Origin: Impatiens glandulifera
Taxonomy: Eukaryota > Streptophyta > Magnoliopsida > Ericales > Balsaminaceae
DNA: 64,000 nt
Reading direction: 5' to 3'
Assembly (NCBI RefSeq): GCF_907164915.1
Contig: NC_061866.1
Location: forward strand, 42,596,320 to 42,660,319
Shown: positions 13,669 to 46,490 of the stretch, piece by piece
Layout: every line of letters begins with the position of its first letter
Numbering within the stretch: the first letter of the stretch is position 1
Translations under genes and position numbers: made by a program
The notes under the pieces: generated by a model
What the model saw: only the letters and a program-made list of their open reading frames with translations
Database searches by the model: none
Told to the model about the DNA's origin: nothing

Positions 13669-14190
13669 CACCTAATTATAATTATATCGAATCTTGGAGC
13701 ACTACATATTATTATGTATTATTTTGACAATAGATAGTAGTAATAATTGTTGTTCCATCATCAACTTGCATTTTTATTATTTTTTTTTAAAATATTTTGT
13801 GGCTGGGGTGAAGTTGCTAATTGACCTGGTCAACCTATACTTTTTTTTTAAGAGGTTTGCACCATCAACACCTGCTTTCTTTCTTTTATTAATGGCAAAA
13901 TCATTTGTTATTAACGAATATATAACATTTTGATATATTATATTATAAGCCAGTTTCAAGTTATATCGAAATATTTTTAAGTTCACCCTATTTCAAAATC
14001 TTGAATTTTTGTATATGGATATCAAACAAAAGTAAGTATTTTAAAAAAGTATATAATTTTGTTATATTAATATAGATTTAAATAAAAATGTATTGACTCA
14101 TCATTTATTTTTTAAACTAAAATATCATTTTTTTTTGTTGTTTCTCTTGAGCAGCTCCAATGCCTACTGGGGTCGCGCGAAATTAAACCT

Positions 14191-24740: not shown

Positions 24741-26613
24741 AGTTTGAGAGCTGCGTGAAATTTCGTACTCGTAATTCCCGAAAGAAGTTTGTGTGTGTTT
24801 AATTACATATATAATGTATAAGATTTTGCAAACTCTTTTAATTTTAAGTATTTTCTTTGTTGCTGATCAAATACTGGTACTATTGTAATAGAATAATATT
24901 TGTTTACATTGTTCAAATATTTAAGTTTATGGTGCTTAACACAATTCAATATTTTTGTAAATTTATTTCTTATTCTTAGACATAAGGAATATTTTATTAA
25001 AAAAAAAGTGTAAAACTAAAATTAAGCTTTTGTAACATAATCTAAAATTTTGTGCGATAAATTATTATTTTTTTTCATCAAAAAATGATTGTTCTAATCT
25101 TTCATAGTAAATATGAACAAAATCACCCCCACTTTTATTTTGATAATTTTCAAACATAATTCTAATATAATTGTTATAAAATATTATATTGCTTAGATTT
25201 ATGGCTTAAATTTAAAAGTCGGTTATAATTATAAATTTATATTGTATCAACATGTTTAAAATGATTTTCAGAATAACTTAACTAGTTTAATATGAATTTT
25301 GTTTAAATAATTACTATTAACATTTTTTCGGGATAATAAACTCAAAGAAGAAGAAAAAATCATGATCAAGTTACTAACTTTATTAAAGCAAGCTATTTAC
25401 TAATTGAATGACTTCTTTAACTAGTTTTTATTAATCATTTCATGGTTTTTTATATTGTAAATTAAAATAAAAAATTATTGATTTGGGCAACGGCCGATTG
25501 GATTCAATATCCGTTTCTTTTATGAATAAAATTTGGGTCCATAGACTCATGAAAAGAAAGCCCAATAAATTAAATAGCTCCTTCAAACATAATTAGTTAC
25601 ATTAAAATTTTAAAATACAAGCTAATTATTATTTTTTGAAAAGAGAAACAAACTTATATTTTTTTTTTTTATATATTTCGTGAATCGTTCTTAAAAAAAA
25701 TACTTTAAAATAAAATTTAAGTAAGAAAATAAATCATTTACTAATCTAGTTTTGACCTCTTATGAAATTTATTTGAATAAATCAAAAGTTTATTTAAAAA
25801 ATATATAATCTTTTAAAAATTAAAAAAAATGTAAATTTTCTTAAATTATATTAATATTTAATGAAAAATTACTATTATTATGATGTTTTCTGAGATTTAT
25901 TCTGAAAGTCGGTAGCGTTAGTCCGAGAGTTATTCGTGTTCTTCTCGAGTATATACAAGTTCGATCACCTATTGACTAATGTTTTTTATTTTTTATTTTT
26001 TTATTTTTTTTGTTTATTATCATTTCATAAATTTGTCGTTGTATCTAAACGATTTTTATCATATTTAATATATATTGATTTTTTCAAAAAATATATAATA
26101 AAAATTTTATATGTTTTAAATAAAATAAGTGATAGAAAAAAAAAAAAATTGAAAGAGAGAATGACGTCATGTTATTAGTTAGAAATATGAAAATATATAA
26201 GGACAGAGTCCTCACTAATTTCATCTTTCAAAATCACTTTATTAATCATTTCACTAAAATAAATATTAAATATTTTATTATTATTTTTTTTGTTAATAAA
26301 TTGTTAATTAGTTTATTAGAGTTTATTTAAATAAATGATATCACTCTTAGATAAACTACTATATAATTATTCAAATTTCAATTTTTTTCCTCTCTATTTG
26401 TTAATTGATAAAAAAAATGATTTATTTAATTCTGAATATCCACCACTTCACACAATCCAAACCTGCCATAATCATGTAAGGTTGAACATCCTCAAACTAA
26501 CGAATAATTAATACTTTTTATTTAGCTCAAAATATTTAATTAATGATGAATTAAGCTAATGGTTAATGAATTAAACATCATTTAACAATAAAAATAAAGT
26601 AACATTAGTAAAA
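24741..26613. repeat. 3' flank of the peptide-gene block (gamma copy)
   Basis: No gene is seen. The stretch is collinear with 2040-3180 of the alpha block (GGGCAACGGCCGATTGGATT at 25486, AAATTTGGGTCCATAGACTC at 25529). A purine-rich stretch with AGAGAATGACGTCATG (26156-26171) resembles the family X MITE at 47836. Confidence 0.6.
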
Positions 26614-27975
26614 CTAGCATTTAGCCCGTGCAAATGCACGATTAATAATATAAAAAACTGTGAAAAAAAATTACGGATAACATTTTTAATTTTATTTTTA
26701 ACCGTTTAAAGTTTATGGGTGGGTCAACCCACAATCCGACCCAAGTATCCATTTACTCAACATCATTATATATATATATATATATATATTAGTTAGTTAA
26801 AAAATTGAATTTATATTAATGTTAAAACGTCCCGCGTTCATCAAATTTGGTGTTGAATTTAAAATATAAAGTCTTTGTAGCCTAGTTGGTTAAAGAGTTG
26901 TACTTGTTTGGTTAGGTTGTAAGTTCAAAACATACCTCTAGCATTTTTAATTTTATTTTTAAACGTTTTAAATTTAAAGACGGGTCAACCCACAATCCGA
27001 CTCAAGTATCCAACTTAACCACAGCTGTCGACCCGGCAATCCGGACACTTTAAAAATTAAGCATCATTATATATATATATATATATATATTAGTTAGTTA
27101 AAAAGTTGAACTTATATTAATATTAAAACGTCTCGCGTTTATAAAATTTGGTGTTTAATTTAAAATATAAAGTCTTTGTAGCCTAGTTGGTTAAAGAGTT
27201 GTACTTGTTTTGTTAGGTTGCAAGTTTGAAATATGCCTCTAGCATTTTTAATTTTATTTTTAACCGTTTTAAATTTTAAGGCGGGTCAACCCACAATCCG
27301 AGCCAAATATCCAAATTAACCACATCTCTCGACTCGGCAATCCGGACACTTTAAAAATTAAGCATCATTATATATATATAGATTAGTTAGTTAAAAAGTT
27401 GAACTTATATTAATATTAAAACGTCCCGCATTTATCAAATTTGGTGTTGAATTTAAAATATAAAGTCTTTGTAGCCTAGTTGGTTAAAGAGCTGTATTTG
27501 TTTTGTTAGGTTGCAAGTTCGAAACATGCCTCTAGCATTTTTAATTTTATTTTTAACCGTTTTAAATTTAAAGGCGGGTCAACCCACAATCCGACCCAAG
27601 TATTCAAATTAACCACAACTGTCGACCCGACAATCCGGACAATTTAAAAATTAAGCATCATTATATATATAGATTAGTTAGTTAAAAAGTTGAACTTATA
27701 TTAATATTAAAACGTCATGCGTTTATCAAATTTGGTGTTGAATTTAAAATATAAAGTCTTTGTAGCTTAGTTGGTTAGAGAGTTGTACTTGTTTTGTTAG
27801 GTTGCAAGTTACAAACATGTCTCTAACATTTTTAATTTTATTTTTAACCGTTTTAAATTTAAAGACGGGTCAATCCACAATCCAACTCAAATATCCAAAT
27901 TAACCACAGTTGTCGATCCGGCAATCCGGACACTTTAAAAATTAAGCATCATTATATATATATATATATTTAATG
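26614..27975 (-). mobile_element. Helitron-like element with four tandem tRNA-like units
   Basis: On the minus strand the element ends in CTAG (26614-26617), preceded by 9 nt and a perfect hairpin (26627-26640, stem CGTGCA/TGCACG, loop AA), and is followed by T. It contains a tandem array whose units begin at 26877, 27178, 27471 and 27762 (spacing 301, 293, 291). Each unit carries TAGCCTAGTTGG, an exact fit to the Pol III A box, and 45 nt later GTTCGAAAC or a mutated form, the B box. GTAGC.TAGTTGGTTA is plainly tRNA-derived. Each unit then has TTTTTAACCGTTTTAAA, GGGTCAACCCACAATCC, GGCAATCCGGACAC and a short (TA)n. Comparison with 3165-3190 shows the insertion point in the gamma block. The 5' end lacks a clear TC start. 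Confidence 0.65.
26877..27975 (+). repeat. About 300-bp tRNA-like tandem repeat, four units
   Basis: Head-to-tail units with A-box-like starts at 26878, 27179, 27472 and 27763; the B box is exact (GTTCGAAAC, 27517-27525) in unit 3 only. The spacing differences come mostly from the internal (TA)n tract (unit 1 longest). Related 305-bp spaced units are at 45117 and 45422. Confidence 0.85.
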
Positions 27976-29499: not shown

Positions 29500-29504
29500 A
29501 TTCT
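29500..29504. other. Target duplication of copia A, left
   Basis: ATTCT, repeated at 43525-43529 on the other side. The uninterrupted sequence is visible at 12444-12448 (GCTCATTCTTCC). Confidence 0.85.
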
Positions 29505-29878
29505 TGTTAGGATTTGTATCTCCCAAATCACAAATCCGACCTGCTTAAAAACAATCTGTAAAAACACAAGAAAGAAGAACACAAGAACACACAGATTTAT
29601 AGTGGTTCACTTAAATTGAGCTACATCTACTTCAGCCACCACCAGATTTACTATGAAGAATAAGAAGGAATACAGAGTTTTTGCCTCACACTTTATCTCT
29701 CTATAATTCTGTCTTAAAAATATAAACCCTTAATAATCACATATTTATAGGGTAAACATTCAGGTAATAAACCTAAATAACTTTGGTCAGGCCCAAGCCC
29801 AAAACCAAAAAGAAAAACTCAATAAACTCTAATTAACAATATAGAGTTTATTATAAGTGTAGACTCCATAACTCAACA
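29505..29878 (-). repeat. 3' LTR of copia A
   Basis: 374 bp, TGTTAG...CAACA as read on the plus strand. The purine-rich tract AAGTGGGAGAT on the minus strand (29879-29890) adjoins its start. It shares the TGTTAGGATTTGTATCTCCC start and the CAGATTTATAGTGGTTCAC segment with the 5' LTR. Confidence 0.92.
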
Positions 29879-29893
29879 ATCTCCCACTTGAAG
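29879..29893 (-). other. Polypurine tract of copia A
   Basis: Minus-strand CTTCAAGTGGGAGAT lies directly before the 3' LTR, the expected primer for plus-strand cDNA synthesis. Confidence 0.75.
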
Positions 29894-29940
29894 ACTAACT
29901 TCATCATCTCTCGATCGGTAATGGCTTTCCATTCGGTGTC

Positions 29941-30956
29941 TTAACGAAGAAGACCAACTGAAGTTGCACAGAACTTCAGTTTCTCATTTGTCACAACTTT
30001 CGTCAACATATCAGCTGGATTCTCACTCCCGGGAATCTTCTCAAGAGCTAATACTCCATCTTCTAAAGCTGACCGGATGAAATGATAATGAACCTGTATA
30101 TGTTTCGTCCTGCCATGATAAACAGGATTCTTTGCCAAATGAATGGCACTCAGACTGTCGCATCGTAACACACTTCCCTCGTAGTCTTGACCCAATTCTC
30201 GCAAAAAGGGTTGTAACCACATCATCTCCTTAGCAGCTTCTGTCACAGCAACATACTCTGCCTCACAACTAGAAAAAGCAACAATTTTCTGCAATTTTGA
30301 AACCCAACTGATTGCAGTACCTCCTAGAGTATAAATGTACCCTGTTGTGCTCTTCCTACTATCAACATCACCACCATTGTCAGCATCAACATATCCTTCC
30401 AAACTCATATTAGACTTTCGAAAACACAAAGCAAGACCCGTACTTCCTCTTAAGTATCGTAGTATCCACTTTACTACTTCCCAATGTTGTCCACCCGGAT
30501 TGCTCATGAATCTGCTAACAACTCTCACTGCATGTGCTATGTCTGGTCTTGTGCAAACCATCGCATACATAATAAAACCAATGACAGAGGTATACGGAAC
30601 AGTTGCCATGTAATTTTTCTCCTCCTCTGTTGAAGGCAACTGATCTTTAGATAGTCTGAAGTGACTAGCTAAGGGGGTAGTAACTGGTTTTGCATCATAC
30701 AAGTTGAACCCGCTAAGAACTTTCTTCACATATTCTTCTTGTGAAAGCTTGAGAACTTCTTCATCCCAAGGATTTGTTTTGCAGCACCCAAATCCTTCAT
30801 TGCAAACTTTTCAGACAACTCTTTCTTAAGTTTGTTAATCTCATACAAGCTTGCTCCAACAATCAACATGTCATCAACGTAGAGAAGAAGAATAATGTAC
30901 GATTTATCAAACCTCTTGATATAGCAGCAATGATCAGCTTCACACCTCAAAAAGTT
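29941..30956 (-). pseudogene. Copia A pol, C-terminal part: reverse transcriptase end and RNase H
   Basis: Reading away from the B insertion: CEADHCCYIKRF, then the catalytic LLLYVDDMLIVG (30726-30950), a frameshift near 30730, then KPVTTPLASHF, CTRPDIAHAV, and RNase H with acidic residues in GYVDADNGG, SSCEAEYVAV and RCDSLSAIHLA. It ends ENPADMLTKV and stops at 29941. This piece continues the protein interrupted at 40338. It matches the Tork/TNT1-94 type. One frameshift makes it non-functional even without the insertion. Confidence 0.9.
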
Positions 30957-31018
30957 TGTTAGGATCGGGGACGCCCTTGGGGGACCGGGGTGTTTCCGGT
31001 TTTAGGAAGGGTGGCCTC
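30957..31018 (-). repeat. 3' LTR of element B, only the terminal 62 bp kept
   Basis: It is identical to 39026-39087 up to GGTGGCCTC, then departs. The following AAAAAGTTT copies the flank at 30949-30957, giving a 13-bp direct repeat CCTCAAAAAGTTT (30945-30957 and 31015-31027). The rest of the LTR (about 1245 bp) and the polypurine tract are missing. This suggests end-joining at CCTC with templated filler. Confidence 0.85.
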
Positions 31019-31027
31019 AAAAAGTTT

Positions 31028-31271
31028 TTAAATTTTTATTTTGCTTCGAAATTCCGGTTTTATTTGAGGACTTGTTAACCGGAAGTTTAGGTTAACATTA
31101 AGGTTTTGTGTATAAATTTTAAAAACTGGAAGGAAAGATATGAATGAAAACCGGAGACTTTTAAAATTAGATATTTCATAAATAAAAAGAGTGAACATTG
31201 AGCGGTTTTGGTCGTACAACAAAAATGACCAAAAACCGGAAAGAAAAGCAGATAACTTAGTTTTCTTTGAA
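31028..31271 (-). other. 3' untranslated region of accessory gene 2 in element B
   Basis: Noncoding, with several AACCGG/CCGGTT motifs as elsewhere in B. No polypurine tract is recognised. It joins directly to the LTR stub. Confidence 0.5.
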
Positions 31272-32018
31272 CTAGTCCCCTTCCATCATTCTTTCGTACC
31301 ACTTGTCCACGGTGTTTTCAGGTGTCCGTTCCTCAATCCTCGATATCCATCTGTGCATCATGGACATGGTGATAGTGTTGGACGGTCCAACCGGAACACC
31401 GGTTCCAAGGTGACGGCGCTTAGACATCAGAAACCGGGTGATTTGAGGGCCGAAACTGGTCCTTCCTCTTGAAGTTGTCATGATCTGCTTCAGTTTGTTG
31501 AAGAGGTAGGTTGCCCAATTGATCGACGAGTTGCGAATGATGGCTATCATGATGTCGGAAGCCTCCCGGTTGTAGTTCTGATTTGGCATTCGGCCCATGA
31601 TAGACCTTTGAACCAAGTCATGCAGGACTTGGTAGTGAGGAGCAAGTGTCTCTTTCTTCCCAAAGTCCTTGATCGGAGCGTTGGAAGAAGAGAAAATCTG
31701 GAAAAAATCTTCCTTAGCCGGCAGGAATAGCGTCGGGAAGTCTGAAAAGCCTTCGGTTGGAAGGTGAAAGAAGTTGGCGAATTCCTCTTCGGTAAACCGA
31801 AGGAATTGGCCGTCGATGATGGTGCGGATGCTGCCATCATCTAGAACATGACCATTGTTGAAAAATTCACACACCTCCTCCACGAGGATAGTGTCTGAAC
31901 CTTTGAGAAAACCTTGAAGCCCCGATTCTATGATCGGTTGGAAGATGCATTCGTGATATGCGCTATCTTTTACGTCTTCGAAATCGACGATGAGTGTGTT
32001 TCTGAGTTCGGCCGACAT
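31272..32018 (-). CDS. Element B accessory gene 2 (248 aa, unknown function)
   Basis: One open frame starts MSAELRNTLIVDFEDV and ends ERMMEGD. It is a clear paralogue of the gene at 32464-33201. Both have an N-terminal acidic DF/D segment, V-E-E-x-x-x-F-F near residue 47, a GQFLRF-type strand, LPTEGFSDFP (LPTEGVTDL in the other), SIMGR/SILGR, MIAI...INW and FNKLKQIM/FSNLKKML. No signal peptide, transmembrane helix, zinc knuckle or catalytic signature is visible, so it is not an env-like gene. The layout loosely resembles the 'putative plant transposon protein' family of plant repeats; that is from memory. A TATA box lies about 105 bp upstream (32121-32132). It has stayed open while gag-pol decayed. 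It reads in the same sense as pol, which ends 1.9 kb upstream. Confidence 0.8.
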   Translation of the reverse strand: MSAELRNTLIVDFEDVKDSAYHECIFQPIIESGLQGFLKGSDTILVEEVCEFFNNGHVLDDGSIRTIIDGQFLRFTEEEFANFFHLPTEGFSDFPTLFLPAKEDFFQIFSSSNAPIKDFGKKETLAPHYQVLHDLVQRSIMGRMPNQNYNREASDIMIAIIRNSSINWATYLFNKLKQIMTTSRGRTSFGPQITRFLMSKRRHLGTGVPVGPSNTITMSMMHRWISRIEERTPENTVDKWYERMMEGD

Positions 32019-32120
32019 TATGAGGAGGAGTGAGAGAGAAGTTGAGGAGATTTTTGTGATTTTTCAAGCTCTAGAGAGAAGGAAAGCAGGAAGCGTGTTT
32101 TGAAAAATGGAGGGTTGAGT

Positions 32121-32132
32121 CCCCTTTTATAG
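32121..32132 (-). promoter_or_regulatory. TATA box before accessory gene 2
   Basis: Minus-strand CTATAAAAGGGG, about 105 bp before the start codon, with a CT-rich leader between. Upstream lie AACCGTT (about 32141-32147), GCATGCTT (32253-32260) and TACGTCA (32309-32315), all of which recur in the LTR of B around its own CTATAAAAGG. Confidence 0.65.
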
Positions 32133-32463
32133 CTTGAAACGGTTGAGAGCATTTAATGAAGATATTTGAAAAATCTAGCCGTTTATGTCTGGTCATTAAT
32201 GATTTTGTGATTTTTCAAGAGAATAAAGACATGTCTTGTCTAATCAAGTCAGGCATGCTTTTTGAGAATGACGATTCCTATTTCCAAGAGTGATTCGTTT
32301 TGATTTGATACGTCACATTAAATGTTTGATCATTTATGACTTTAGATTTTAGATTAAAAGAGGAAGGAAATCTGCTTCATTGATTAAGGTACAAAGCCGG
32401 TAGTACAGCAAAATTACCGGTTTTGGAAAAACGAAATAAAATAAGACAGAAGGAAAGGACAGG

Positions 32464-33201
32464 CTAGACGTTAGATGACTCAGCCGCTTGATTTCTTCTA
32501 GCCTTCACTGCTTCCCACCGGTCGACCAGCTCTTGTACTCTCTCCTTGGTGAGCACATGTCTTGGATGGAGGGTTACGAACTGTCCGGAGTGGATGTCCA
32601 GACTTGCACAAAAACCGCTCAGCTGAGGAGCGTAGCCGGTTTTATTGGAGAGGAGCATCTTCTTCAGGTTGCTGAAGATGATCCAGGACCAGTTAACCGA
32701 TGTCCCAACCGTTACAGCGATCATCATCTCGAAAAGTCTTTGGGTGTAGTAGTAGTTTTTCTCTCTGCCCAAAATGGACTTTCCCAGGATCTCACAAAGA
32801 AGCTGGTACTTGTGAGAGAGTTGGCTTTTAGCACCCCAGGGTCTAACCGGGATGTCAGATCTTGAGAACCGGCGACACATCTCTTCCATGGTCACCGGGG
32901 AGTATGTTAGGTCGGTTACCCCTTCAGTGGGCAAACCGCAGTATACAGCGAAATCCGTCTCGCTGAATAAGAATTTCTGACCGTAGACTTGTGCAACGAT
33001 TATGTCTCGATGCACTTCCTTTCCGGTCTGGAAGAATTCTTCGACTACTAGGTTGTCGAGAATGAATCCGTTCTCAAGGAAGCTTCTTAGCCCGCTTCTT
33101 TCGACGGCCAAGAACATTTCTTTAACTTCGTGATCTTCATATTGGTAGATTGAGTTAAAATCTGCCAATAGAATCTTCTTTGCTAGAGAGTTGGAATTCA
33201 T
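32464..33201 (-). CDS. Element B accessory gene 1 (245 aa, unknown function)
   Basis: One open frame starts MNSNSLAKKILLADF and ends QAAESSNV. It is paralogous to the gene at 31272-32018 along most of its length: VVEEFF, GQKFLFSETDFA, LPTEGVTDL, KYQLLCEILGKSILGRE, MMIAV...SVNWSWIIFSNLKKML. The C-terminal quarter differs (VQELVDRWEAVKARR, probably helical). No membrane segment or known catalytic motif is seen. It starts about 700 bp beyond the pol stop codon and has its own TATA box 80 bp upstream (33281-33289), so it need not depend on read-through from the LTR. A role in the element's life cycle, or a captured host gene, is possible; neither can be told from the sequence. Confidence 0.8.
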   Translation of the reverse strand: MNSNSLAKKILLADFNSIYQYEDHEVKEMFLAVERSGLRSFLENGFILDNLVVEEFFQTGKEVHRDIIVAQVYGQKFLFSETDFAVYCGLPTEGVTDLTYSPVTMEEMCRRFSRSDIPVRPWGAKSQLSHKYQLLCEILGKSILGREKNYYYTQRLFEMMIAVTVGTSVNWSWIIFSNLKKMLLSNKTGYAPQLSGFCASLDIHSGQFVTLHPRHVLTKERVQELVDRWEAVKARRNQAAESSNV

Positions 33202-33280
33202 GTTCTTGAGAGAGAGGTTAATCTCAAGAATGATACTTGTGAATAGTAATCTTGTGAAGATTTGTGAAGGTTTAAGGGTG

Positions 33281-33289
33281 GTTTATATA
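33281..33289 (-). promoter_or_regulatory. TATA box before accessory gene 1
   Basis: Minus-strand CTATATAAAC, about 80 bp before the start codon, followed by a CT/A-rich leader. GCATGCTT (33321-33328) and the near-palindrome GATGATGTCATC (33329-33340) upstream both have counterparts in the LTR (39894-39901 and 39803-39814). Confidence 0.65.
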
Positions 33290-33340
33290 GTCAGGGGTTC
33301 GGCTAGACTAATAGGCTTAAGCATGCTTGATGATGTCATC

Positions 33341-33897
33341 AGTTATTTAATAGGCTTTAACTTGTTGAAGTAAATAATGTTTATTTCCAAGGCAGAAACT
33401 AATTATTACCAAGATATTAATGATGACAAATATCTATTGACAAGATGTGAGTCTCCCTCTCTTGATGATGGACACATGTCGTCATCTTGATTGTGGTAGA
33501 CTGTTTTTATTTATTACAGACTTCATTTTTCAAAATATGCATGAAAACTTAGTCAGTCATCCCAGGTTAACCGGAGGAGTTCATTCTATCAGACCAGAAT
33601 GCATTTGTACTAAGCGGTTTTCCATGACCGGTTTTAGTAGGATATTTTGTTCCGATTATGAAGAAAAGTTGATTTATGTCAACATTTTTTCAACTTTGGG
33701 TTTATCATATCCACTTCAACCTGGTTATTTCAACCGTATAGTAAATATACATGTGATTTGAAGTTTATGAAGTAATCGGGCATAACCGGAGACTTCCTCC
33801 CGGTTAGCATTTTTGATTTATCAATGGCCTATTTGAGTATGGTTTGAGAAGCAAGAGCTTCTCCCTGAACACATATCCCGGTTTTATACATGCATAA
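33341..33897 (-). other. Element B spacer between pol and accessory gene 1
   Basis: Noncoding. It has several CCGGTT/AACCGG motifs (33570, 33620, 33630, 33787, 33801). It presumably holds the upstream promoter of accessory gene 1 and the end of the pol transcript. Confidence 0.5.
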
Positions 33898-36885
33898 TCA
33901 TGATATGAGTTGATTTAGATTAGTAAGTCCCAAAATATTTCGAAAGTGAGAGAACTTAGCTTCCTGTAGCGGTTTTGTGAATATATCCGCAACTTGTTGC
34001 TCGGTCGAGACATATTCCAGCCGGATGTGTTTCTCCTGAACGTGCTCCCGGATGAAATGGTGTCTTATATCGATATGCTTTGTTCTTGAGTGCAACACCG
34101 GATTGTATGTAATCGCTATAGCGCTGGTGTTGTCACAGAAGATTGGAGATTCCTTGGCTTCTATCCCGAAGTTCCTTAGTTGTTGTTGGATCCAGAGAAG
34201 TTGTGCACAGCAGCTTCCAGCCGCTATGTACTCTGCCTCTGCGGTTGATGTTGCAACAGATGTTTGTTTCTTGCTGCTCCAAGTGACTAGCCGGTCACCT
34301 AGGAACTGGCAGGTTCCACTTGTGCTCTTTCTATCGATTTTGCATCCTGCGTAATCGGCATCTGAGTAGCTTATGAGGTTGAAGCTTGAGTCTTTTGGGT
34401 ACCAAAGTCCCATTTCTTGAGTTCCCTTCAGATATTTTAGGATTCTTTTGGCCGCCGTATAGTGAGATTGCTTTGGATTTGCTTGAAATCTTCCGCACAC
34501 TCCAACCGCAAACAGAATGTCAGGTCGGCTGGCTGTTAGATATAGCAGTGATCCGATCATTCCTCGATATGCTGTGATGTCAACGGCTTGACCGTCATCA
34601 TCTTTGTCCAGCTTTACGGAAGGACTCATTGGCGTAGCCGCTTCAGCGCATGTATCCATTCCAAATTTCTTCAGCAGCTCGGCTGTATACTTCGGTTGAC
34701 TTATGAAGGTTCCGGATTCAATCTGCTTAACCTGAAGTCCTAGAAAGAAACTCAATTCTCCCATCATACTCATTTGAAATCTATCAGTCATCATTTTTGA
34801 AAACTTGTCACATAACTTTGGATCGGTTGATCCAAATATGATATCATCAACATAAATCTGAACAAGTAATATTTGTTCCTTTCTTTCAAATTTGAAAAGT
34901 GTTTTGTCTACCGAACCTATTGTGAATTTGTGAGTAAACAAAAATTGCGTCAATGTATCATACCAAGCTCTTGGAGCTTGTTTCAAACCGTACAGGGCTT
35001 TGTTCAGCCGGTAAACATGATTTTCGTGTTCTGGATTTTTGAAACCTGGAGGTTGATTAACATATATCTCTTCATTTACTTTACCGTTTAGAAAAGCACT
35101 CTTAACATCCATTTGAAAAACTTTGAAGTTTTTAAAAGCTGCGTATGCTAAATATATTCTAATGGCCTCAAGTCTAGCTACAGGGGCAAATGATTCTTCA
35201 AAATCAACGCCTTCTTCCTGTTTATAGCCTTGAGCCACTAACTGGGCTTTGTTCCTCGTAACTAAACCGTCTTCATTGAGTTTATTTCTGAATACCCATC
35301 GTGTTCCTATAACCGGTTTGTTTTTCGGTCTAGGGACTAGGTACCAGACTTTATTTCTCTCAAACTCGTTTAATTCCTCTTGTATTGCTGAGATCCAATC
35401 TGGAACTGACAATGCTTCATTCACCTTTTTCGGCTCAATTTGTGATATGAAAGCTGAGTTTTCATAGTGATCCAAATTTTGTTGCCTAGTTCGGACGGGT
35501 GAGGATATGTTACCTATTACTAGTTCAAGAGGATGATTTTTGTTCCTTCTGAGGTTAATCCGAGACGTGTTTATCAAGCTTTCGGTTGGCTGATCAAGGT
35601 TAGACTGATCGGTAGGTTGAATAGAGTCAGACCGACTGATTTCTTCAGTAGAAACTGAAGTGTCAACTTTCTGCGGTAAAGCAGCTTGATCAGGCTGAGT
35701 TTCAGCATCAACCGCTTGGTCCTTGACGAATCGTCTAAAAACCGGAACCTCGTCTTCATCATCAGAATAGATATTAAAATTTTCCATTCTGTTGTGAAGG
35801 TCGAAGGGTAATGCAGTGTTTCGTTCAACCGATTCATCGAAAACAACGTGTGCGGTTTCTTCAACTGTTAAAGTCCTAGTATTGTATATTCTGTAGGCTT
35901 TACTCACAGCTGAATATCCCAACATTATTCCCTCATCGGATTTAGCATCAAAAGCGGTCAAGTAATTCTTGCCGTTATTGTGAACAAAACATTTGCTACC
36001 AAAAATTCGAAAATACCGTACACTTGGAATTTGATCAAAGTAAATTTCAAAAGGAGTTTTAGAATACCGTTTAGTTACTAAAGATCGATTTTGTGTATAG
36101 CATGCGGTATTGATAGCTTCAGCCCAAAACTTTTGAGCAATACCCGAATCAGCTATCATTGACCTTGCGGCTTCCTTGAGAGTTCGGTTTCTTCTCTCAA
36201 CCAGACCGTTTTGTTGAGGAGTTCTGGAACTAGACAACTCGTGTCTAATACCGGAGTCATCAAGAAAAGTAGTTAAATTACTGTTTATAAACTCAGTTCC
36301 TCTATCACTTTTGATTTTGTTCACTCGAATTGATTTTTCATTTTGTATTCTCAAAATCAGTTTAATCAGGTTTGGAGTTGCTTGGATTTTAGAAGCTAGA
36401 AAAGTAACCCAAGTAAATTTAGAGTAATCATTAATAACTACAATGGTGTAATGCATGCCTCCTAAACTAGTTACTTTAACCGGACCAAACAGATCCATAT
36501 GCAAGAGTTCTAAGCATCGTTCAGATTGATAATTTCCTTTACTTTTGAAAGATGATTTTACTTGTTTGCCCATTTGACATGCAGCACATACTTTATCTTT
36601 TGAAAACTTAACATTTGGAAAACCGTGAACTAGTTCCTTGGAACAAACGAAGTTAATCGTTTTGAAGTTCAAGTGGTTTAACCGTTTATGCCAAAGCCAG
36701 TTTGGATCATTTCCGGCTATCATACACACAAGTTTTTCAAAATCAGTTTTCCAATCAACTTTGTAAATATTTCCCATCCGGTTACCGGTTAAAAGAATGT
36801 CATTATCCTGATTTTTAACTAAACATGAGTTTTTATGAAATTCAACTATGTAACCCACATAACACATTTGACTTATACTTAGCAA
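33898..36885 (-). pseudogene. Element B pol: integrase, reverse transcriptase, RNase H (995-codon open part)
   Basis: The order from the N-terminus is: pre-integrase [11 protein letters not shown] (about residue 64); zinc-binding CAACQMGKQ; integrase core with its acidic residues in [18 protein letters not shown] and [10 protein letters not shown]; reverse transcriptase with [36 protein letters not shown] and [12 protein letters not shown]; then [24 protein letters not shown], and RNase H with [20 protein letters not shown] and CDNTSAIAI. It ends [10 protein letters not shown]...NQLIS. All catalytic residues expected for the family are present. It stays in frame with the protease part (36901-37164) except for a TAA at 36901-36903, so pol as a whole is broken although this part is open. 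Confidence 0.93.
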
Positions 36886-36900
36886 GTTAAAACGCAGTTC

Positions 36901-37164
36901 TTATACCAATAGTACATTGCTTATGGATAGATTATCATGGACAATCTTACCCTTGTCCACGGTTTTACCTTTCGAGTTGTCCCCGAATGTGATGATTGCT
37001 CCGGTTTCGTACTTGATGTCGGTTAGTAGCTCTTTGTTTCCGGTCATATGCCTTGAACATCCGCTGTCCAAGTACCATTCTGAATTCTTTAGCCGGTTGC
37101 TCCTCCTAACCTGCAACAAACAATTATTTACACCTTTTTGGTACCCACATTTAGTTGGGTCCAT
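36901..37164 (-). pseudogene. Element B protease segment
   Basis: It contains WYLDSGCSRHMTG (the DSG catalytic motif of copia proteases) and FGDNSKGKTVDKGKI. It stops at TAA 36901-36903, after which the same frame continues with [14 protein letters not shown] frameshift near 37155 separates it from the upstream part (ending VWIPKGLINHG). Confidence 0.88.
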
Positions 37165-37981
37165 GGTTGATTAGTCCCTTTGGGATCCAAACTTGAATAA
37201 GTCGGATCACTTTCCCGGTATCTGTTTTTATAATATTTGGCTTAACTTCTTGGTTGTTGCTCAAGAATGCCTTATGTTGTGATGAATTTCTTTGAGGTCG
37301 AGTTTTATTTGGTTTATTTGGTTTCCGGTTGTCTTTCCTTCTCTCAGGATGAAGCCATTTTTCTGATTCAGTAGGGCTTACATACTTAAGTGTTTCTTCC
37401 GGTTTGTGAACTCTTGACAAATTTTATAAACGGAAGATTATTTTTCGTGAATTTCATCTCGTTAGGTTGTTTTGATTCGTTTTGTTTATTTGATTCGTAA
37501 CTGATACCATACCTACACTTAGGGTGTCTTTTATAGTTACACATTTGTTTTACAGCTTGACGTGATCTCTCCCACGCAGCCGTGACGTACATTGCTCGTT
37601 CATCGGTTTCGGTTACCGGTTGAACTATCTTCTTATTATCGGAGAATAGTTCATCTGGTTCATGCATTTCGGTTTCACATGTTTTATCATATACATTTTT
37701 TATTTGTTCGTTTTAGATACGAGCGGAGCCGGTATGTACGTAGATATGTTTCTGAACTCAGCAACCATTTCGTTGAGTGCAGAAATCAAATCTTCTTTGG
37801 TAAACTCGTTAGAAGAGAAATCAAATACCTCTTCGTCGTTTGCCATGAAGCAGGTTACTCTCTCTTCACCGTCTTTATTATCGGAGTATGCCCACTCACT
37901 TCCGCCGTCGGATGCAATGAGCGCCTTCTGAATCTCCTTTCCTTCGTCTGTACGCTGATCATCGTTTCTCCGGTAGTCGTT
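37165..37981 (-). pseudogene. Element B gag-protease linker, with stop and frameshifts
   Basis: After the gag stop (TGA 37979-37981) the same frame continues with NDYRRNDDQRTDEGKEIQ, then DGEERVTCFMANDEE and EFTKEDLISALNEMV, the usual text of Sire-type gag-pol. A frameshift near 37700 leads to TCETEMHEPDELFSDN and another near 37400 to PEETLKYVSPTESEKWLHP. The stop therefore looks like a mutation inside a single gag-pol frame, though programmed read-through cannot be excluded. Confidence 0.75.
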
Positions 37982-38980
37982 TCATTGGTTGTCGTTTCTC
38001 CGGTAGTTGTTTCCCTGATAGTTGTTTCCCTGGTACCAGTTGCTTTGATAGTTGTTCCCTTGATAGTTTCCTTCCGGTTTTCTATCGTCTCTCCTTGGTT
38101 TTCTACACTCTGACCTGAAATGTCCAAAACCGTCACAGTTATAGCATCTTTTATTTGATTTATCTACATAGTTATAATTAAAATCATTGTTAGATGGTGG
38201 CTGACTCTTCTTCATGAATTTCCCAAATTTCTGAGCTAGCATCGCCATCACATCTTCAGTGATCTGATCGGTGTTTTTGACTAGAGCCGGAACGGTTGAT
38301 ACTTGGACCGTCGGTTCCACCGATGTAACCAAAGCTCTGGTTGCGGTTGATGTGGATGCTTCGTCTTCGATCCGAGACTTGATCTCGAACTCGTAGGCTT
38401 TTAGATCCTCGAACACATCATGCAACTTCATCTGCCCAAGGGTGCTTGATTCCCTCATTACCATGGTCTTGATATCCCAAGTGCTTGGCAGAGATCTTAA
38501 GGCCTTGATGATTACTTCTCGGTTGTCATACTTCTTTCCGAGTGTTTGAAGCTCGTTGACTACACTGGTGAACCGGTTGCTAAATTCCTTCATGTTTTCC
38601 CCCGGTTTCATCCTGATGTTTTCATATTTCTGTGTAGCCACCAAGATTTTGTTCTCCTTAGTTCTTTTGTTTCCCTCATGGATCTGAATGATCGTTTCCC
38701 AGGCTTCCTTTGCATTTTCACACTCTGATATTTTGTTCAAAGTGTTATCATCTATAGCCTTGTAGATGTGCCTCATGCAATAGTTGTCCAAGTTACTCCG
38801 TCTTCGATCTTCATTCGTCCATAGGTCTGCCTCCTTGTTGATCTTGATCGGTCCCTCTTTCAGGACTCGGCTCATCTCATCATCTAACGTAATCAGATGT
38901 AGGTACATCTGTTTCTTCCAACTGCTAAACGCTTCGCTGTTTAGCATTGGTGGCTTGTCGCTGTGGGTCATGCTTCCCAT
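37982..38980 (-). CDS. Element B gag (332 codons to the stop)
   Basis: UBN2-type copia gag. It starts MGSMTHSDKPPMLNSEAFSS and contains WKKQMYLHLI, AKEAWETIIQIHEGN, ENMKEFSNRFTSVVNELQTL and EVIIKALRSLPSTW. Near residue 283 is a zinc knuckle, CYNCDGFGHFRSEC (CX2CX4HX4C), followed by an unusual NYQGNN-type low-complexity repeat. Gag packages the RNA and builds the particle. It lies 30 bp downstream of the primer-binding site. In an intact element it would be fused to pol; here TGA interrupts it at 37979-37981. Confidence 0.9.
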   Translation of the reverse strand: MGSMTHSDKPPMLNSEAFSSWKKQMYLHLITLDDEMSRVLKEGPIKINKEADLWTNEDRRRSNLDNYCMRHIYKAIDDNTLNKISECENAKEAWETIIQIHEGNKRTKENKILVATQKYENIRMKPGENMKEFSNRFTSVVNELQTLGKKYDNREVIIKALRSLPSTWDIKTMVMRESSTLGQMKLHDVFEDLKAYEFEIKSRIEDEASTSTATRALVTSVEPTVQVSTVPALVKNTDQITEDVMAMLAQKFGKFMKKSQPPSNNDFNYNYVDKSNKRCYNCDGFGHFRSECRKPRRDDRKPEGNYQGNNYQSNWYQGNNYQGNNYRRNDNQ

Positions 38981-39011
38981 CTTCTTCGGTTGCTTGAGTG
39001 CTAAGAACCTC

Positions 39012-39023
39012 GCTCTGATACCA
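39012..39023 (-). other. Primer-binding site of element B
   Basis: Minus-strand TGGTATCAGAGC, two bases inside the 5' LTR, complementary to the 3' end of plant initiator tRNA-Met. Confidence 0.92.
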
Positions 39024-39025
39024 CT

Positions 39026-40332
39026 TGTTAGGATCGGGGACGCCCTTGGGGGACCGGGGTGTTTCCGGTTTTAGGAAGGGTGGCCTCTTACACAACACAC
39101 AACACTCTTTGGAGATAGTCCGGTTAGAGACTATAACCGTTCTCAGCACTACACAAGCTGTTGCAGACTCTTGAACCGGGTTCAAGGGCGGAAATGTCTG
39201 TTTCAGGTTGAAGCAACGTATGCGACTTTAGATGATGTTTTTAGAAGGAGTCGGTTTTATGGATATGAGTGGGCCGGTTTTCGGAGTACGATTGGTTTGA
39301 GGTTAGGTTAAGTAAGCAAGAAATGTAGGCAAAAGAAAGAACACGAGACAAGACTTTTTATGGATGTTCGGAGCAAAATCTCCTACGTCACCCCTTCTTC
39401 TCAGGTTATGAGAAGGATCTCCACTAACTTTTATAGTTACAACAACACTGTCGGTCGAGCCCAACTTCGCTACTCGTCGGTTACACCAACTCACTCTTTG
39501 ATGTAATACAATAACTCAACACAAACACACAGAGAAAGCTTCTGGTTTTAGACACACCGGTTTAGAATATAAGAGTTTATCTCTCTAACTTTATGATTCG
39601 TTTTTCGTGATTTACAACTCAACAACTGCTACTGCATTAAATGAAGACGTTTCATCTTCCTTTTATAGTTGAGAAGAGCCAACGGTTACTTTCTTCTCTC
39701 TCCTCTAGATTGGTTGATCATTATCACGCCGGTGTAGAGAAGTTGCTTGCACGCTTCACCTTCCTCAACACTTGGCAGTCATGCAGGCAGCTCTGAGTGT
39801 AAGATGACATCATCGGTTTTCAGATTTGGACACGTGTTAAATATGCACTTCAGGTTGTCAACATCAGATCAATAAAGCATCATTGCTTTCCTCGCATGCT
39901 TCCGATCGGATCTGATCTTCTTTTATTCTTTCAAGACACGTCTGTTTCGTCATGTTACGTCACTCTTGAAGTTTGAATTTTTTGGTTTTGTCTCTTGTGC
40001 AGTATGATCCGGCTGGTAAGTGAACTTTTGTCTTTGCTGACCGGTCGCTTGAGAGAGTGAAAACCGGTTCCTCTGATCTTTTACTTGATCACTTGGAGCA
40101 GGTTTCTTTGAAATATAACAGCAACCGGTTTATGATGCCCCAACCGGTTCATACGGTTTTGATCTGTATCTGCACATGAAAGTTAACAATTGTTTAGTTC
40201 GTCTGGCCGGTTCCAAAAATTAACTTACTTAATTTTTCTATCAATTTCTCCCTTTTTGATTATTTAGAATAAATATTCAAAACTTGTAATGTGTGGCCGG
40301 TTTGAAAATTAACTTACTTAATTTTTCTATCA
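39026..40332 (-). repeat. 5' LTR of element B (1307 bp)
   Basis: TG...CA ends. It holds a TATA box (minus-strand CTATAAAAGG, 39659-39668) with AACCGTT beside it, TACGTCA (39956-39962), GATGACATCATC (39803-39814) and GCATGCTT (39894-39901) upstream of it in the sense of transcription, and about fourteen CCGG tetramers, mostly as CCGGTT/AACCGG. Transcription would start near 39630. A short repeat, AAATTAACTTACTTAATTTT, occurs twice near its far end (40214 and 40306). Confidence 0.88.
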
Positions 40333-40337
40333 AAATT

Positions 40338-43213
40338 GTTATATTTCATGAAGTTATCAAACTTCTTGTACCATTGCCTTGGAGCCTGTTTCAAACCATA
40401 CAGACTTTTCTGAAGCTTACACACAATCTCATCTTTTCCTTTGATTTCAAATCCTTCTGGTTGTCGCATATAAATCTCTTCATCTAAATCACCATGAAGA
40501 AAAGCAGTTTTGACATCCATTTGTTGAAGATAAAGGTCTTCTTTCACAACCAAACTCAAAATAGTTCTGATTGTCATCAATTTAACTACTAAAGAGAAGA
40601 TTTCATTGTAGTCAATACCTTCTTTCTGTTGAAATCCTTTCACAACCAACCTTGCCTTGTACCTCATGGTTTTATCATGTTCTTCTTTAATCTTGAAGAT
40701 CCATTTGTTGTGAAGTGCTTTCTTTCCCTTTGGTAGCTCAGTGAGCTCCAAAGTCTGATTCAACATCAAAGAATTCATCTCATCTTTCATAGCAGACTCC
40801 CACTTAATCGATTCATCAGATTTTATTGCTTCCTCATAACATTCAGGTTCACCTCTATCTGTCAACAAGATATAGTTTAGAGATGGAGACCACCTCTCAA
40901 CTGGTTTTCGATTCCTTGATGATTTTCTCAACTGTATAACCGTGTTTGCTGATTTACCTCTAGGGCCACGTTCTCAACGATTTCATCTTCAACAACACAT
41001 TGTTCTTTTTCGACAATCGGTATATATTCAACTGAAAATTCTCTCAAATCGACTGTACCAGTCTCTTCCAACTTGGAATCACCATCTGATGTCTTCCCAA
41101 CATAATCTTTGTAGAGAACCTGTTCATTGAAGATAATATTTCTGCTACGAATGATCTTCCGATTTTGATTATCCCAGAAACGATAACCAAACTCGATATC
41201 ACCATAACCAATGAAAAAACATTTATTAGACTTTGGATCAAGCTTGCTCCTATCACATTCATTAATATGAACATATGATAAACAACCAAACACTTTCAAA
41301 TAAGAAAGGTTTACCTTTTTATTGCTCCAAGCTTCTTCAGGAATTCTGAATTCAAGAGGAACAGAGGGTCCCCTGTTTATCAAATAGGCAGTAGTATTAA
41401 TATCTTCTGCCCAGAAGGTTTTAGGCAGTCCTGCATGCAATCTCATGCTTCTAGCACGCTCGTTCAATGTTCGATTCATTCTTTCAGCTACTCCATTCTC
41501 TTGAGGTGTTCGGGGAACAGTCTTCACCATACTGATCCCATTCTCAGCACAATACTCTTTGAAATCTGAATTGATATATTCACCTCCGTTGTCGGATCTC
41601 AAGCACTTAACTTTCTGATTTGTTTCATTTTCAACCAAAGTCTTTCACTTCTTGAAAATAGCAAATACTTCAGACTTGTGCTTCATAAAGTAAACTCATA
41701 CTTTTCTTGTTGAATCATCTATAAAAGTCACATAGTAGTATGATCCGCCAATAGAAGAAACATGTGCAGGTCCCCACACATCAGTGTGTACCAACTCTAG
41801 TCTTTCTTTCTTGAGCTCCTTCCCAGTTTTTAAGAAAGTCACTCGTTTCTGTTTTCCAAGAATGCAGTTTCACATAACTGATGTTCAATAGACTTCAGTT
41901 CTGGAATCTGTCCATTCGTCAAAAGAATTTTCATCCCTTTTTCGCTCATATGGCCCAACCTGCAATGTCATAGCTCACTGTTCTTCGAGTCATCAATTAC
42001 AGCAGCAACTGTTTCTCTTCAAGTTGAAGTCGTGTATAACGTTCCAGTTTTGTGACCTCGAGCAACAACAATTGCTCATTTAGTCACCTTCCATGCACCT
42101 TTTCCACAACTGAAATTGTGACCTTCTTCATCTAGTTGTGTAACAGAAATCAGATTGCGTATTAAACTTGGAATGTGTCTCACCTTATTAATCTTCCAAA
42201 CAGAACCATTTGTCATCTTCAATTTGATGTCCCCCATGCCAACAATATCCAGTGGCTCACCATCTGCGAGATAAACTTTCCCACAGTTTCCACCCACATA
42301 ATTCTCCATTAATTATTTATGGGCAGTGGTGTGGAAAGACGCTCCCGAGTCCAAAACCCATGAATCTATCGGGCTATCAACAGACAGAAGTAACGCATCA
42401 GTGACAGATTCTGTAACAACGTTGGCTGCATCATTTTTATCATCACCATTTTTCTTCAGTGCTTTGTAGTTCCTCTTTAAATGACCATTTTACCACAATT
42501 CCAACACTCAAATGTCTTTCCAGACTTGGACTGACTCCTCCTGCTCCTTGACATAGATCTGCTCTTACCTTGGTTGAAATTTCTATCATTATCTCTACCC
42601 CTGTTTTCCACATTCAGAGCAGAACCTTTGAATGTTTCACCAGAATCAATTTTACGAACCTCTTCAACAAAATACGATCTCTAACTTCAACAAATTTCAG
42701 TTTAGCATTTCCAACTGAATTACTAATTGCTGCCCTCATAGGTTCCCAACTATTTGGTAGAGATGCTAACAAAATCAGGGCACTAACTTCATCCCCAAAA
42801 TCAATCTCAACAGATAGCAATTGATTCACAATTGTATTGAATTCATTCAAATGAGTAGTGACAGAAGTACCATCAACCATTCTTAAGTAAAAGAGTCTTT
42901 TCATTAAGTGTACCTTATTGTTAGCAGATGGTTTCTCATACATATCAGAAAGAGCTTTCATCAGACCCATGGTGGTCTTGTCCTTTGCTACATTGTGAGC
43001 AACTGTCTTGGCTAGCGTCAATCGGACAACTCCCAAAACCTGTCTATCAAGGAGTTTCCATTCAGCTTCATTCATCTTCTCTAGTTTCTCACTCAAAGGA
43101 ACATGAAGCTTCTTTCCATAGAGATAATCTTCAATCTGCATTCTCCAGAAGACTTAATCTGTCCCATCAAATCTTCTAATCCCATGTCCTATACTATTCT
43201 CACTTGCCATCAT
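40338..43213 (-). pseudogene. Copia A gag and pol, N-terminal part
   Basis: Gag starts near 43213 (MMASENSIGHGIRRFDGT, then an in-frame stop) and continues at 42614-43141 with EWKLLDRQVLGVV, MKRLFYLRM and FNTIVNQL. A zinc knuckle starts ECWNCGK. The protease has DSWVLDSGASFHTT, pre-integrase has LWHCRLGHMSEKGM, and integrase (40928-41800) has ELVHTDVWGP, CLRSDNGGEY and QENGVAERMNRT. The reverse transcriptase begins at 40931 with LELTELPKGKKALHNKWIFK and DGDLDEEIYMRQPEG-like text, reaching KQAPRQWYKKFDNFMKYNNF, where B is inserted. At least seven stops or frameshifts. It continues at 30956. Confidence 0.9.
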
Positions 43214-43239
43214 TTCCAATGCTCAGATCTATCCTAGCT

Positions 43240-43251
43240 GCTCTGATACCA
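43240..43251 (-). other. Primer-binding site of copia A
   Basis: Minus-strand TGGTATCAGAGC, two bases inside the 5' LTR; initiator tRNA-Met type. Confidence 0.92.
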
Positions 43252-43253
43252 GT

Positions 43254-43524
43254 TGTTAGGATTTGTATCTCCCAAATCCGACCTGCTTGAAAATAATCTG
43301 TAAAAACACAAGAAAGAAGAACACAAGAACACACAGATTTATAGTGGTTCACTCAAATTGAGCTACATCCATTTCAGCCACCACCAGATTTACTATGAAG
43401 AAGAAGAAGGAATACAGAATTTTTGCCTCACACTTTATCTCTTTAGAATTCTGTCTTAAAAATGTAAATCCTTAATAATCACATATTTCAGGCCCAAGCC
43501 CAAAACCAAAAAGAAAACTCAACC
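43254..43524 (-). repeat. 5' LTR of copia A (partly deleted, 271 bp)
   Basis: It matches the 374-bp 3' LTR except for two missing stretches: one after CACATATTT and one between the two ACTCAA copies near the outer end. The final CA reads CC. It is followed by ATTCT (43525-43529). Confidence 0.88.
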
Positions 43525-44781: not shown

Positions 44782-46490
44782 ATGAGATACTCCAAGAATA
44801 ATTATATGTATGTTAGTCTTCTTTTGAAGGTCTTGTGTTATGGCAATCATGATCTTCATGACATTAGGTCAGACATCAAGAGAACTAACTGAAACTCTCG
44901 TTTCTCCCACTCCATCAAGTAAAAACCTCTCTCACGTTTTAATATTTTCAATAAAACGTTCTTATTTAAGAAAATATTTGATTCTAGGTTCGATTCCTGA
45001 CACTTATAATTTTTTATTATTTATGAACCGTTTTAAAAAATATAACATGTTCAAAGTTATTTCGTTATTCAATCTAAATCTAGTTCTATTAACAAAATGG
45101 GAATAATATATATTGATGCTTAATTTTTAAAGTGTCTGGATTGCCGGGTCGAGAGCTGTGGTTAATTTGGATATATGTGAGAGTAAATGGATACTTGGGT
45201 CGGATTGTGGGTTGACCCGCCCATAAACTTAAAACAGCTAAAAATAAAATTAAAAATGCTAGGTATGGTTCGAACTTGCAACCTAACAAAAATAAATACA
45301 ACCTTTTAACCAACTAAGCTAATAACACTTTATATTTTAAATTCAACCCAAATTTTGATAAACGCGTGACATTTTAACATTATAAGTTCAACTTTTTAAC
45401 TAAATAATTTATATATAATGATGCTTAATTTTTAAAGTGTCCGGATTGACGGGTCGAGAGCTATGGTTAATTTGGATATATGTGAGAGTAAATGGATACT
45501 TGGATCGGATTGTGGGTTGACCCGCCCATAAAAAATTTACCGTAATATTTTTTCACGATTTTTTATATTATTACTCGTGCAAATGTTTGCACAGGATACA
45601 TGCTAGTTGGTATGAATAGTTATAACTTAAATTCACAATGAAATGTAAAAGGGTTGGCGTCATCAGATTAAAATATAATATATAGTGTTCGATACTAAAA
45701 CTTGTTTATCTGGGGTATTTTGGATTTTTTTTCTTATGAATTTTGTCTAAAATAATAACTTTGTTCGATAAAAAGTGAGTTATTACTTATTAGAGATAAA
45801 TTACTAAAATATTGTTGAATTTTAAATTTTAAATCAATCTAATAAAGTAAATGTATTTTGATATTTTAGTTAATGATTTAAAAAAATGATAGTTGAAAAT
45901 ATATTAATGTGATAGAGAGAAATGTTTTTAAAAAGTAAAAAAAAAAATCTTAAAAATTCATAAAAACCAAAAATCGAATCAGCTCTAGAAGGTATTGTTT
46001 AAATTATTTTTATTTTTATAAATAAAAAGATTGAGAATAGTTGAAGTTACTAAAAAATAATAATTCTTTGGTGATATTGTTCGATCTAGTTTTAAAAAAT
46101 AATTTAATATGATAATTTTTTTTACATAATTGAAATGATGAATAAATTCACTTCTTATATTAGTTATTTTTGTCACTTTATAATTACTTCAACTTAACTA
46201 TTAAATTAATAATTTAGTGTTGCTTCATAGCTGATTTTTTCAAATGACGATTCAATACTATGCAATAAATAAATAAAAATGGTTTAAGTAATAGAATCAT
46301 GCATATTAAGCGATAACTTTATTAATACAGATTTAAAGGTACAATTATTGAATTGATTAATTTTAAATTAGGTAATTCTTCAATTATTTTTAAAATTAAA
46401 ATATCATTTTTTTTTGTTTCTCTTGAGCTGCTCCAATGCCTCCCGGGTCGCCCGAAACTACACTTGGGGCAAGTACATAGTATTGTTTCT
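44782..46490 (+). pseudogene. Small secreted-peptide gene, copy delta (frameshifted)
   Basis: The start codon at 44782 opens MRYSKNNYMYVSLLLKVLC, then a one-base shift; the other frame gives MAIMIFMTLGQTSRELTETL and SPTPS up to the donor CAA|GTAAA (44919). From the gene start the frame hits TGA. Exon 2 (46433-46477) reads APMPPGSPETTLG. Its expected donor is GC instead of GT (GGG|GCAAGT), which would make a rare GC-AG intron. Exons 3 and 4 are not recognised. Intron 1 holds a Helitron-like element. It could yield a shorter protein only if translation began at 44840, which would shorten the signal peptide. Confidence 0.6.
45090..45606 (+). mobile_element. Helitron-like element with tRNA-like units, in delta intron 1
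   Basis: It ends in CTAG (45603-45606), then T; 10 nt before is a perfect hairpin GTGCAAA/TTTGCAC (45577-45592, loop TG). It carries about 1.6 units of the same repeat as 26614-27975 in the opposite orientation, with unit landmarks TGCTTAATTTTTAAAGTG at 45117 and 45422 (spacing 305) and the reverse of the A/B box module at 45260-45335. The 5' boundary is approximate. Confidence 0.6.

Follow-up and report, generated by a model that had tools for sequence, protein, structure and literature searches.

Three tandem paralogous genes downstream of pol in a SIRE-type copia retrotransposon family of Impatiens glandulifera: candidate self-promoted regulators of their own element

Introduction

Extra open reading frames (ORFs) in SIRE retrotransposons are genes of an already known kind. 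In the available part of a survey of these elements, 74% of them carried such an ORF, and a BLAST comparison divided the ORFs into 19 groups that resembled one another little or not at all (PMC6317226). Sirevirus lengths of up to 14.4 kb, in Maximus, are given in the accessible text of a second paper (PMC2829016), and the role of the gene that follows pol in SIRE elements is called controversial in the accessible portions of two papers (PMC2829016, PMC3414828). Genes between pol and the 3' LTR are also present in Grande, whose gene23 has its own promoter and, by a cited title, a nuclear product (PMC7264820, available in part), and in Retand, for whose TRP28 DNA binding is suggested in the available text (PMC11963269).

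The DNA analyzed here, referred to as the window, is a stretch of 64,000 nucleotides from Impatiens glandulifera, and the original prediction made from it was that extra genes follow pol in a SIRE-type copia element. This was upheld. The genes described below as A, B, and C occupy, in a copia element, the position and strand of the SIRE eORF-3'F or "ENV-like" gene, with the difference that the SIRE extra ORF is one gene and here there are three tandem paralogues. According to the portion of the literature at hand, ENV-like genes share membrane and coiled-coil domains (PMC3414828), whereas A, B, and C have no membrane segment. An internal promoter for the Sirevirus ENV gene has been proposed and, in the available text, not conclusively identified (PMC2829016), whereas in this element a TATA box precedes each gene. 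A literature search, with subscription journals mostly outside its range, returned no account of three tandem paralogues downstream of pol in copia, of TATA boxes before such genes, or of the accumulation of AACCGR.

Results

Structure of the Element in the Window

The window contains a damaged copy of a large SIRE-type copia retrotransposon family, the lineage label being assigned by eye. The 5' LTR (39026..40332, minus strand; 1307 bp, TGATAG...CTAACA) was matched over its length by the 3' LTRs of three sibling copies, at 92–93% identity, and was followed by the primer binding site TGGTATCAGAGC (39012..39023, minus strand), which was read from the sequence and which we take to be of the tRNA-Met type. 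From the ORF list and a Pfam scan, gag (37982..38980, minus strand) was found to encode a Retrotran_gag_2 domain and a CCHC knuckle scoring 19.6 bits, just below the cut-off of 20.8. Between gag and pol lay a broken stretch of short frames 2, 0, and 1 (36901..37667, minus strand). The same sources placed gag_pre-integrs, rve, and then RVT_2 in the open stretch of pol (33898..36885, minus strand), that is, the copia order with integrase before reverse transcriptase (RT), and a Sirevirus-type extra forward ORF was present between pol and the 3' LTR. The prediction that gag-pol is broken was borne out, as gag, the three short frames, and pol occupied frames 0, 2, 0, 1, and 1 with an in-frame stop (36901–36903) before pol.

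This copy has been shortened by a deletion (junction at 31018..31019) that took gene C and left only a 62-bp remnant of the 3' LTR (30957..31018, minus strand), with the same sequence as the corresponding end of the 5' LTR. The left target-site duplication, AAGTT (30952..30956), and the right one, AAATT (40333..40337), were alike at four of five positions. The element was inserted in the reverse transcriptase of an outer copia, and joining the flanks restored an open outer RT frame; the LTRs of this outer element (29504–29746 and 43253–43488) were 92.6% alike. By arithmetic, the full element would measure about 14 kb.

A Sirevirus feature of the polypurine tract (PPT) is an octamer, AGGGGGAG, that occurs in several copies, lies 10 bp upstream of the 3' LTR, and is followed by AT. 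At this position, AGGGAGAA was found in siblings L016 and L020 and AGGGAAAA in L009, each followed by AT, and the exact AGGGGGAG in none of the three. Extra copies of AAGGGAG were located before the LTR in L020 (one) and earlier in L009 (one).

Several other observations were made around the element. The outer copia (29504–43488) looks Tork-like by eye; the studied element interrupts it, and its reading frames are disrupted. The 13-mer CCTCAAAAAGTTT occurs on either side of the 62-bp LTR remnant (30944–31028), with one copy at the deletion junction and the other in the flank, an arrangement that resembles templated end-joining. A 44-bp stretch at the LTR start (40291–40333) recurs about 90 bp inward (40201–40244) with a PPT-like tract between, and similar repeats also border the start of the 3' LTR in siblings. 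Tandem repeats of about 300 bp lie to the left of the outer copia (26612–27975), with inverted copies, 71–81% alike, on the right (45106–45608). The G+C content of 14001–16000 is merely 11.5%, and a 170-aa frame on the minus strand (18100–18612) looks by eye like a copia-type protease/pre-integrase.

A Third Paralogue in Sibling Insertions

Both predicted ORFs were recovered on the minus strand: accessory gene A, of 245 codons (32464..33201), and accessory gene B, of 248 codons (31272..32018). The two are paralogous as claimed, with 70 of 230 residues identical (30%, E 7e-35), and the short motifs on which their relationship had been proposed, such as S-I-(M/L)-G-R, are invariant columns of their alignment. 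Gene B has 253 codons in 26 of 30 loci; the window copy ends five codons short of this common end, which is also that of the public Impatiens protein.

The 654 Mb genome of Impatiens glandulifera was the search space for siblings. Gene B gave at least 150 matches (150 of 150 scored, the best of 18,674 first-look candidates), 84–100% identical and 116 of them without a stop, and gene A also gave at least 150 (150 of 150 scored, the best of 19,290 first-look candidates). The A–B order was constant in all 30 loci obtained from the B search, window locus included, and A was a single nearly full-length match in 27 of them. Insertions lacking both genes were not found, A and B being present together in each of the 29 siblings examined.

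The sequence of a third, larger paralogue, C, was present downstream of B in 28 of the 29 siblings and absent in L015. In L015, the start of C is missing, and the 3' LTR begins about 880 bp past B, preceded by a frame that looks like the end of C. In the three siblings read through, gene C comprised 976 (L009) to 986 (L016) codons and was followed by a full-length 3' LTR; its residues 11–230 matched A (26%, E 5e-23) and B (28%, E 7e-23). Hence, the prediction of two genes described the window copy correctly and the family incompletely: the family has three, the window copy has lost C, and its "two genes" are the remnant of three.

Gene C was broken in all three copies read to the end, by one stop each in L009 and L016 and by a frameshift in L020. 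A genome scan with the Pfam family PF20167 revealed stop-free frames of about 970–1037 codons, and at least two of these (C3:9791061-9791501 and C2:34290752-34291192) sit at the C position beside a listed B. Since such stop-free frames adjoin listed B genes, copies with an open C exist. The LTR pairs differed by K2P distances of 0.020 in L016 and 0.023 in L009. At the expected place of the 5' LTR of L020 (L084), pieces of LTR were observed in opposite orientations, as a result of either a rearrangement or a nested insertion.

Purifying Selection on the Accessory Genes

Ratios of dN/dS were calculated by the Nei-Gojobori method, pooled over pairs, with codon bootstrap intervals. The values were 0.127 (0.094–0.173) for A and 0.146 (0.107–0.202) for B, with 30 sequences each, the B value being biased downwards because the loci were ranked on similarity to B. 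For pol, where 15 stretches were fetched and L032 gave no match, they were 0.185 (0.138–0.237) for the integrase piece and 0.111 (0.086–0.145) for the RT/RNase H piece, with 15 sequences each. The C domain (0.159, 0.123–0.212) and the basic linker of C (0.284, 0.199–0.389) were analyzed in 28 sequences. Values near 1 were not found, and A, B, and the C domain were constrained to a degree comparable to pol. Additionally, variants common to at least five copies were more often synonymous than private ones, with nonsynonymous to synonymous ratios per site of 0.07 vs. 0.38 in A, 0.14 vs. 0.39 in B, and 0.13 vs. 0.59 in the C domain.

The open state of A and B beside a broken gag-pol, pointed out in the original prediction, is no sign of special constraint, as stops per codon were similar in A and pol. 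In 29 copies of A, with 245 codons, 19 internal stops were counted, and the 14 copies each of the integrase piece (321 codons) and the RT/RNase H piece (480 codons) had 13 and 22, respectively; the low count of eight in B (29 copies) is to be read with B having been the query that ranked the loci. Such lesions in single copies, with those 19 stops in A and the early end of B in the window, are what remnants or chance ORFs without function would show. This explanation is hardly credible against dN/dS values of 0.13–0.16 with upper limits near 0.2 and against orthologues, described below, in a family with saturated synonymous sites. Because both genes are present in 29 of 29 sibling loci with dN/dS of 0.13–0.15, A and B are not chance frames.

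A Diverged Family and the Age of the Triplication

The same genome contains a diverged family (L081 with L079) with the same pol-A-B-C order, one copy of which was read upstream of C. Its RT/RNase H protein was 84–86% identical to that of the window family, with saturated synonymous sites (pS 0.79), and its three genes shared 33%, 39%, and 41% identity with A, B, and C, respectively; the diverged A and B carry stops in the copy read. A seven-sequence tree grouped each gene with its counterpart or counterparts from the diverged family, with support of 82 for A, 90 for B, and 100 for C. The two genes had rightly been proposed to be paralogous, a relationship that extends to C, and the duplication proved to be old, each gene pairing with its diverged-family counterpart. 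This pairing of sequences indicates that the triplication predates the split of the two families.

Nonsynonymous divergence between the families was 0.086 for RT/RNase H, 0.69 for A, 0.54 for B, and 0.58 for the C domain, so that the accessory proteins diverged six to eight times as much as RT/RNase H. The three genes are, then, constrained inside a family and fast-changing between families. Module exchange with another element was considered as the cause of this fast divergence and dropped: it is not needed, because the synonymous sites of RT are saturated too (pS 0.79) and faster protein evolution suffices.

Domain Content and Relatives of the Proteins

The domain common to A, B, and C is predicted to be Pfam Transposase_32 (PF20167), whose curated cut-off was passed solely by the diverged C. 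Two matches of the diverged C scored 51.4 and 48.4 bits, with the cut-off at 45; in the window family, C (34.1 bits) and B (15–19 bits) remained below it, and A had no match. Both A and B matched the diverged C with E values of 4e-25 to 1e-29. The plant mobile domain (PF10536) presumably has an "LP..G" look similar to that of the accessory proteins, and PF10536 was not listed in any Pfam scan of A, B, or C.

The long tail of C appeared coiled and charged by eye, which would suit a scaffold, and the purifying selection comparable to pol would likewise suit proteins that help to build or package the virus-like particle. This role is considered improbable, since the Pfam scans reported no gag similarity of the accessory proteins and a six- to eightfold higher protein divergence than in RT/RNase H is unlike a core part.

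The predicted lack of a membrane segment was confirmed, the top 19-residue Kyte-Doolittle mean being 1.32 in A and 0.79 in B; no membrane-helix-like stretch was found in four pieces of C (top 19-residue hydropathy 0.94–1.25), and C had the basic clusters KKPKRK, KKSTARK, and KKKRK. These features speak against envelope-like or movement proteins aiding particle exit from the cell, a role once proposed for SIRE1. The position after pol is that of the Sirevirus ENV-like gene, and the envelope role itself is called unproven and controversial in the available text of the same papers (PMC2829016, PMC3414828), so that this role is judged very improbable for A, B, and C.

Structure models of A and B (two sequences each) were too poor to use, with mean pLDDT of 38.1 and 40.6, and nothing meaningful was matched among solved structures. 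In a database of 5.8 billion proteins, searched for relatives sharing exact words, B had one match, an Impatiens glandulifera drug-resistance transporter gene model (P0001), A had no match, and a profile of A and B retrieved the same single match. P0001 is publicly recorded as "pleiotropic drug resistance protein 1-like" and has the tail of gene B as its end; it is either a chimeric gene model or contains a transposon exon. No relative was found in viral contigs with A and B together, nor with A, B, C, or the diverged C.

TATA Boxes Before Each Gene

A TATA box lay about 88 bases before gene A (33282..33289, minus strand) and another about 113 bases before gene B (32125..32131, minus strand). 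Among the siblings, a TATAWA box was present upstream of A in 25 of 25 testable loci, of B in 30 of 30, and of C in 24 of 26, counts that measure persistence among related loci and not independent events. By dinucleotide shuffling, the chance of a box in the stretch from -125 to -85 was 0.063 for A, 0.021 for B, and 0.006 for C. In the diverged family, boxes preceded A (chance 0.169) and C (0.014), and no TATAWA box was found in the tested stretch before B (chance value 0.066). With chance values of 0.063 and, in the diverged family, 0.169, the box before A alone could be due to chance. Furthermore, AACCGTT was located shortly upstream of the TATA box in the LTR and likewise before the boxes of B and C.

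Accumulation and Turnover of the AACCGR Motif

The most enriched 6-mer of the element was AACCGG, with 54 occurrences vs. 3.9 in dinucleotide shuffles; 13 were in the LTR (0.3 expected), which also holds three AACCGGTT palindromes. The motif was scattered over coding and noncoding parts with irregular spacing and formed no dense noncoding tandem arrays. Coding DNA contained 26 occurrences vs. 6.9 under synonymous-codon shuffles (maximum of 1000 shuffles, 15); of the individual parts, gag, pol, B, and the initial part of C showed this excess, which did not reach significance in A (p 0.07) or in the second part of C (p 0.12). A palindromic CGG-CCG repeated motif in at least eight copies has been described, in the available text, for 13 elements (PMC2829016); the studied element has one such box, in the LTR, and does not reach that number.

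The top 6-mers of the diverged family were AACCGA (14 vs. 1.9) and AACCGG (10 vs. 1.2). Its coding excess was significant in RT/RNase H only, A being without an AACCG site and B and C not significant. In the aligned coding DNA of the two families, with 26 and 11 AACCG sites, one position was in common. Since synonymous sites are saturated and the density was kept while the sites turned over, this sequence pattern is indicative of a reader acting in trans. The confinement of the diverged-family coding excess to RT/RNase H speaks against such a reader, as does the conservation of the motif's CG pairs, which is not significantly above that of other CG pairs.

A mutational or reverse-transcription bias, leaving AACCGR as a functionless by-product, would explain an excess that is alike in coding and noncoding DNA and a conservation among copies that is not significantly raised (0.950 for CG pairs inside the motif vs. 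0.921 for other CG pairs, p 0.31, 27 loci). Nevertheless, the excess is specific to AACCG words and recurs at other positions in the diverged family, and the neighboring copia of the same genome has none. Moreover, the motif contains CG and CHG sites, which decay in methylated plant DNA. Bias alone is for these reasons thought to have little likelihood.

The main rival to an element-encoded reader is a host transcription factor, e.g., a MYB-type activator, that uses AACCGR, with the accessory proteins serving in particle assembly, nuclear import of cDNA, or target choice. Mitosis-specific activator sites have AACGG as their core, and the AACCGTT close upstream of the TATA boxes of the LTR, B, and C would fit such a factor, as would the fact that the motif is tied to the proteins by analogy only. 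Against it, two host stretches were near background (AACCGG 4 vs. 2.9 and 5 vs. 2.5) and the outer copia had no AACCGG at all, and AACCGR occurs throughout the coding DNA of gag, pol, and the accessory genes, far from any promoter. The host factor is thus regarded as unlikely, less so than the packaging role.

Discussion

The reading preferred here, by analogy with a described system and with a probability of roughly 40%, is that A, B, and C are self-promoted nuclear regulators acting on the AACCGR DNA of their own element, perhaps against silencing. Each accessory gene would be transcribed from its own internal promoter, and the proteins would act in the nucleus, where one or more of them may bind the many AACCGR sites of the element. 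Binding could raise transcription of the element or counter host silencing, as VANC does for VANDAL DNA transposons. With its domain, basic linker, and long tail, C would be the main effector, and the single-domain paralogues A and B may be its partners or competitors. Against this reading stand the dispersed arrangement of the motif, the CG-pair conservation and the limited coding excess of the diverged family described above, the missing TATAWA box of the diverged B, and the chance origin that the box before A alone could have. A wider version seems doubtful at present: that in SIRE-type elements a tandem array of PF20167 genes with their own promoters reads selection-renewed AACCGR sites over the whole element, coding DNA included, and so stays active against silencing.

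The three paralogues under constraint, the TATA box preceding each of them, and the dominant self-motif yield testable predictions on transcription starts, nuclear location, and the binding site, so that a long-debated class of plant transposon genes becomes testable. If this wider version is true, plant copia "envelope" genes would be regulators of chromatin or transcription.

Among known systems, the 3' ORF of sunflower Athila matches PF20167 in the available text (PMC11728184), as does the diverged C; Athila is a Ty3/gypsy element and the studied element a copia, whose window-family A, B, and C are below the PF20167 cut-off or unmatched. The profile matches would assign the extra genes of SIRE elements and the Athila 3' ORF to one Pfam superfamily, whereas the BLAST survey separated SIRE extra ORFs into 19 groups (PMC6317226). 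Grande gene23 and Retand TRP28 are located between pol and the 3' LTR, as are A, B, and C, and differ from them in being antisense to gag-pol, in belonging to Ty3/gypsy elements, and in their domain. The Sirevirus RM boxes are comparable to AACCGG in that, according to the available text, they contain CCGG, are repeated, and occur both in the LTR and upstream of the extra gene (PMC2829016); they have a CGG-CCG core, whereas the studied element has single AACCGR words, also in coding DNA.

In VANDAL, VANC is an element-encoded extra protein accompanied by a short motif over-represented in its own element, according to the accessible part of that work (PMC5735166), and the studied element presents the same combination. 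VANDAL elements are DNA transposons, whereas this is an LTR retrotransposon with, by the Pfam scans, another protein family. The VANC motif lies, in that text, in noncoding tandem repeats (PMC5735166), whereas AACCGR is spread over coding and noncoding DNA; protein binding and demethylation are described for VANC, and for the present family the over-representation of a motif was read from sequence alone. The likeness to VANC is therefore one of analogy and not of membership.
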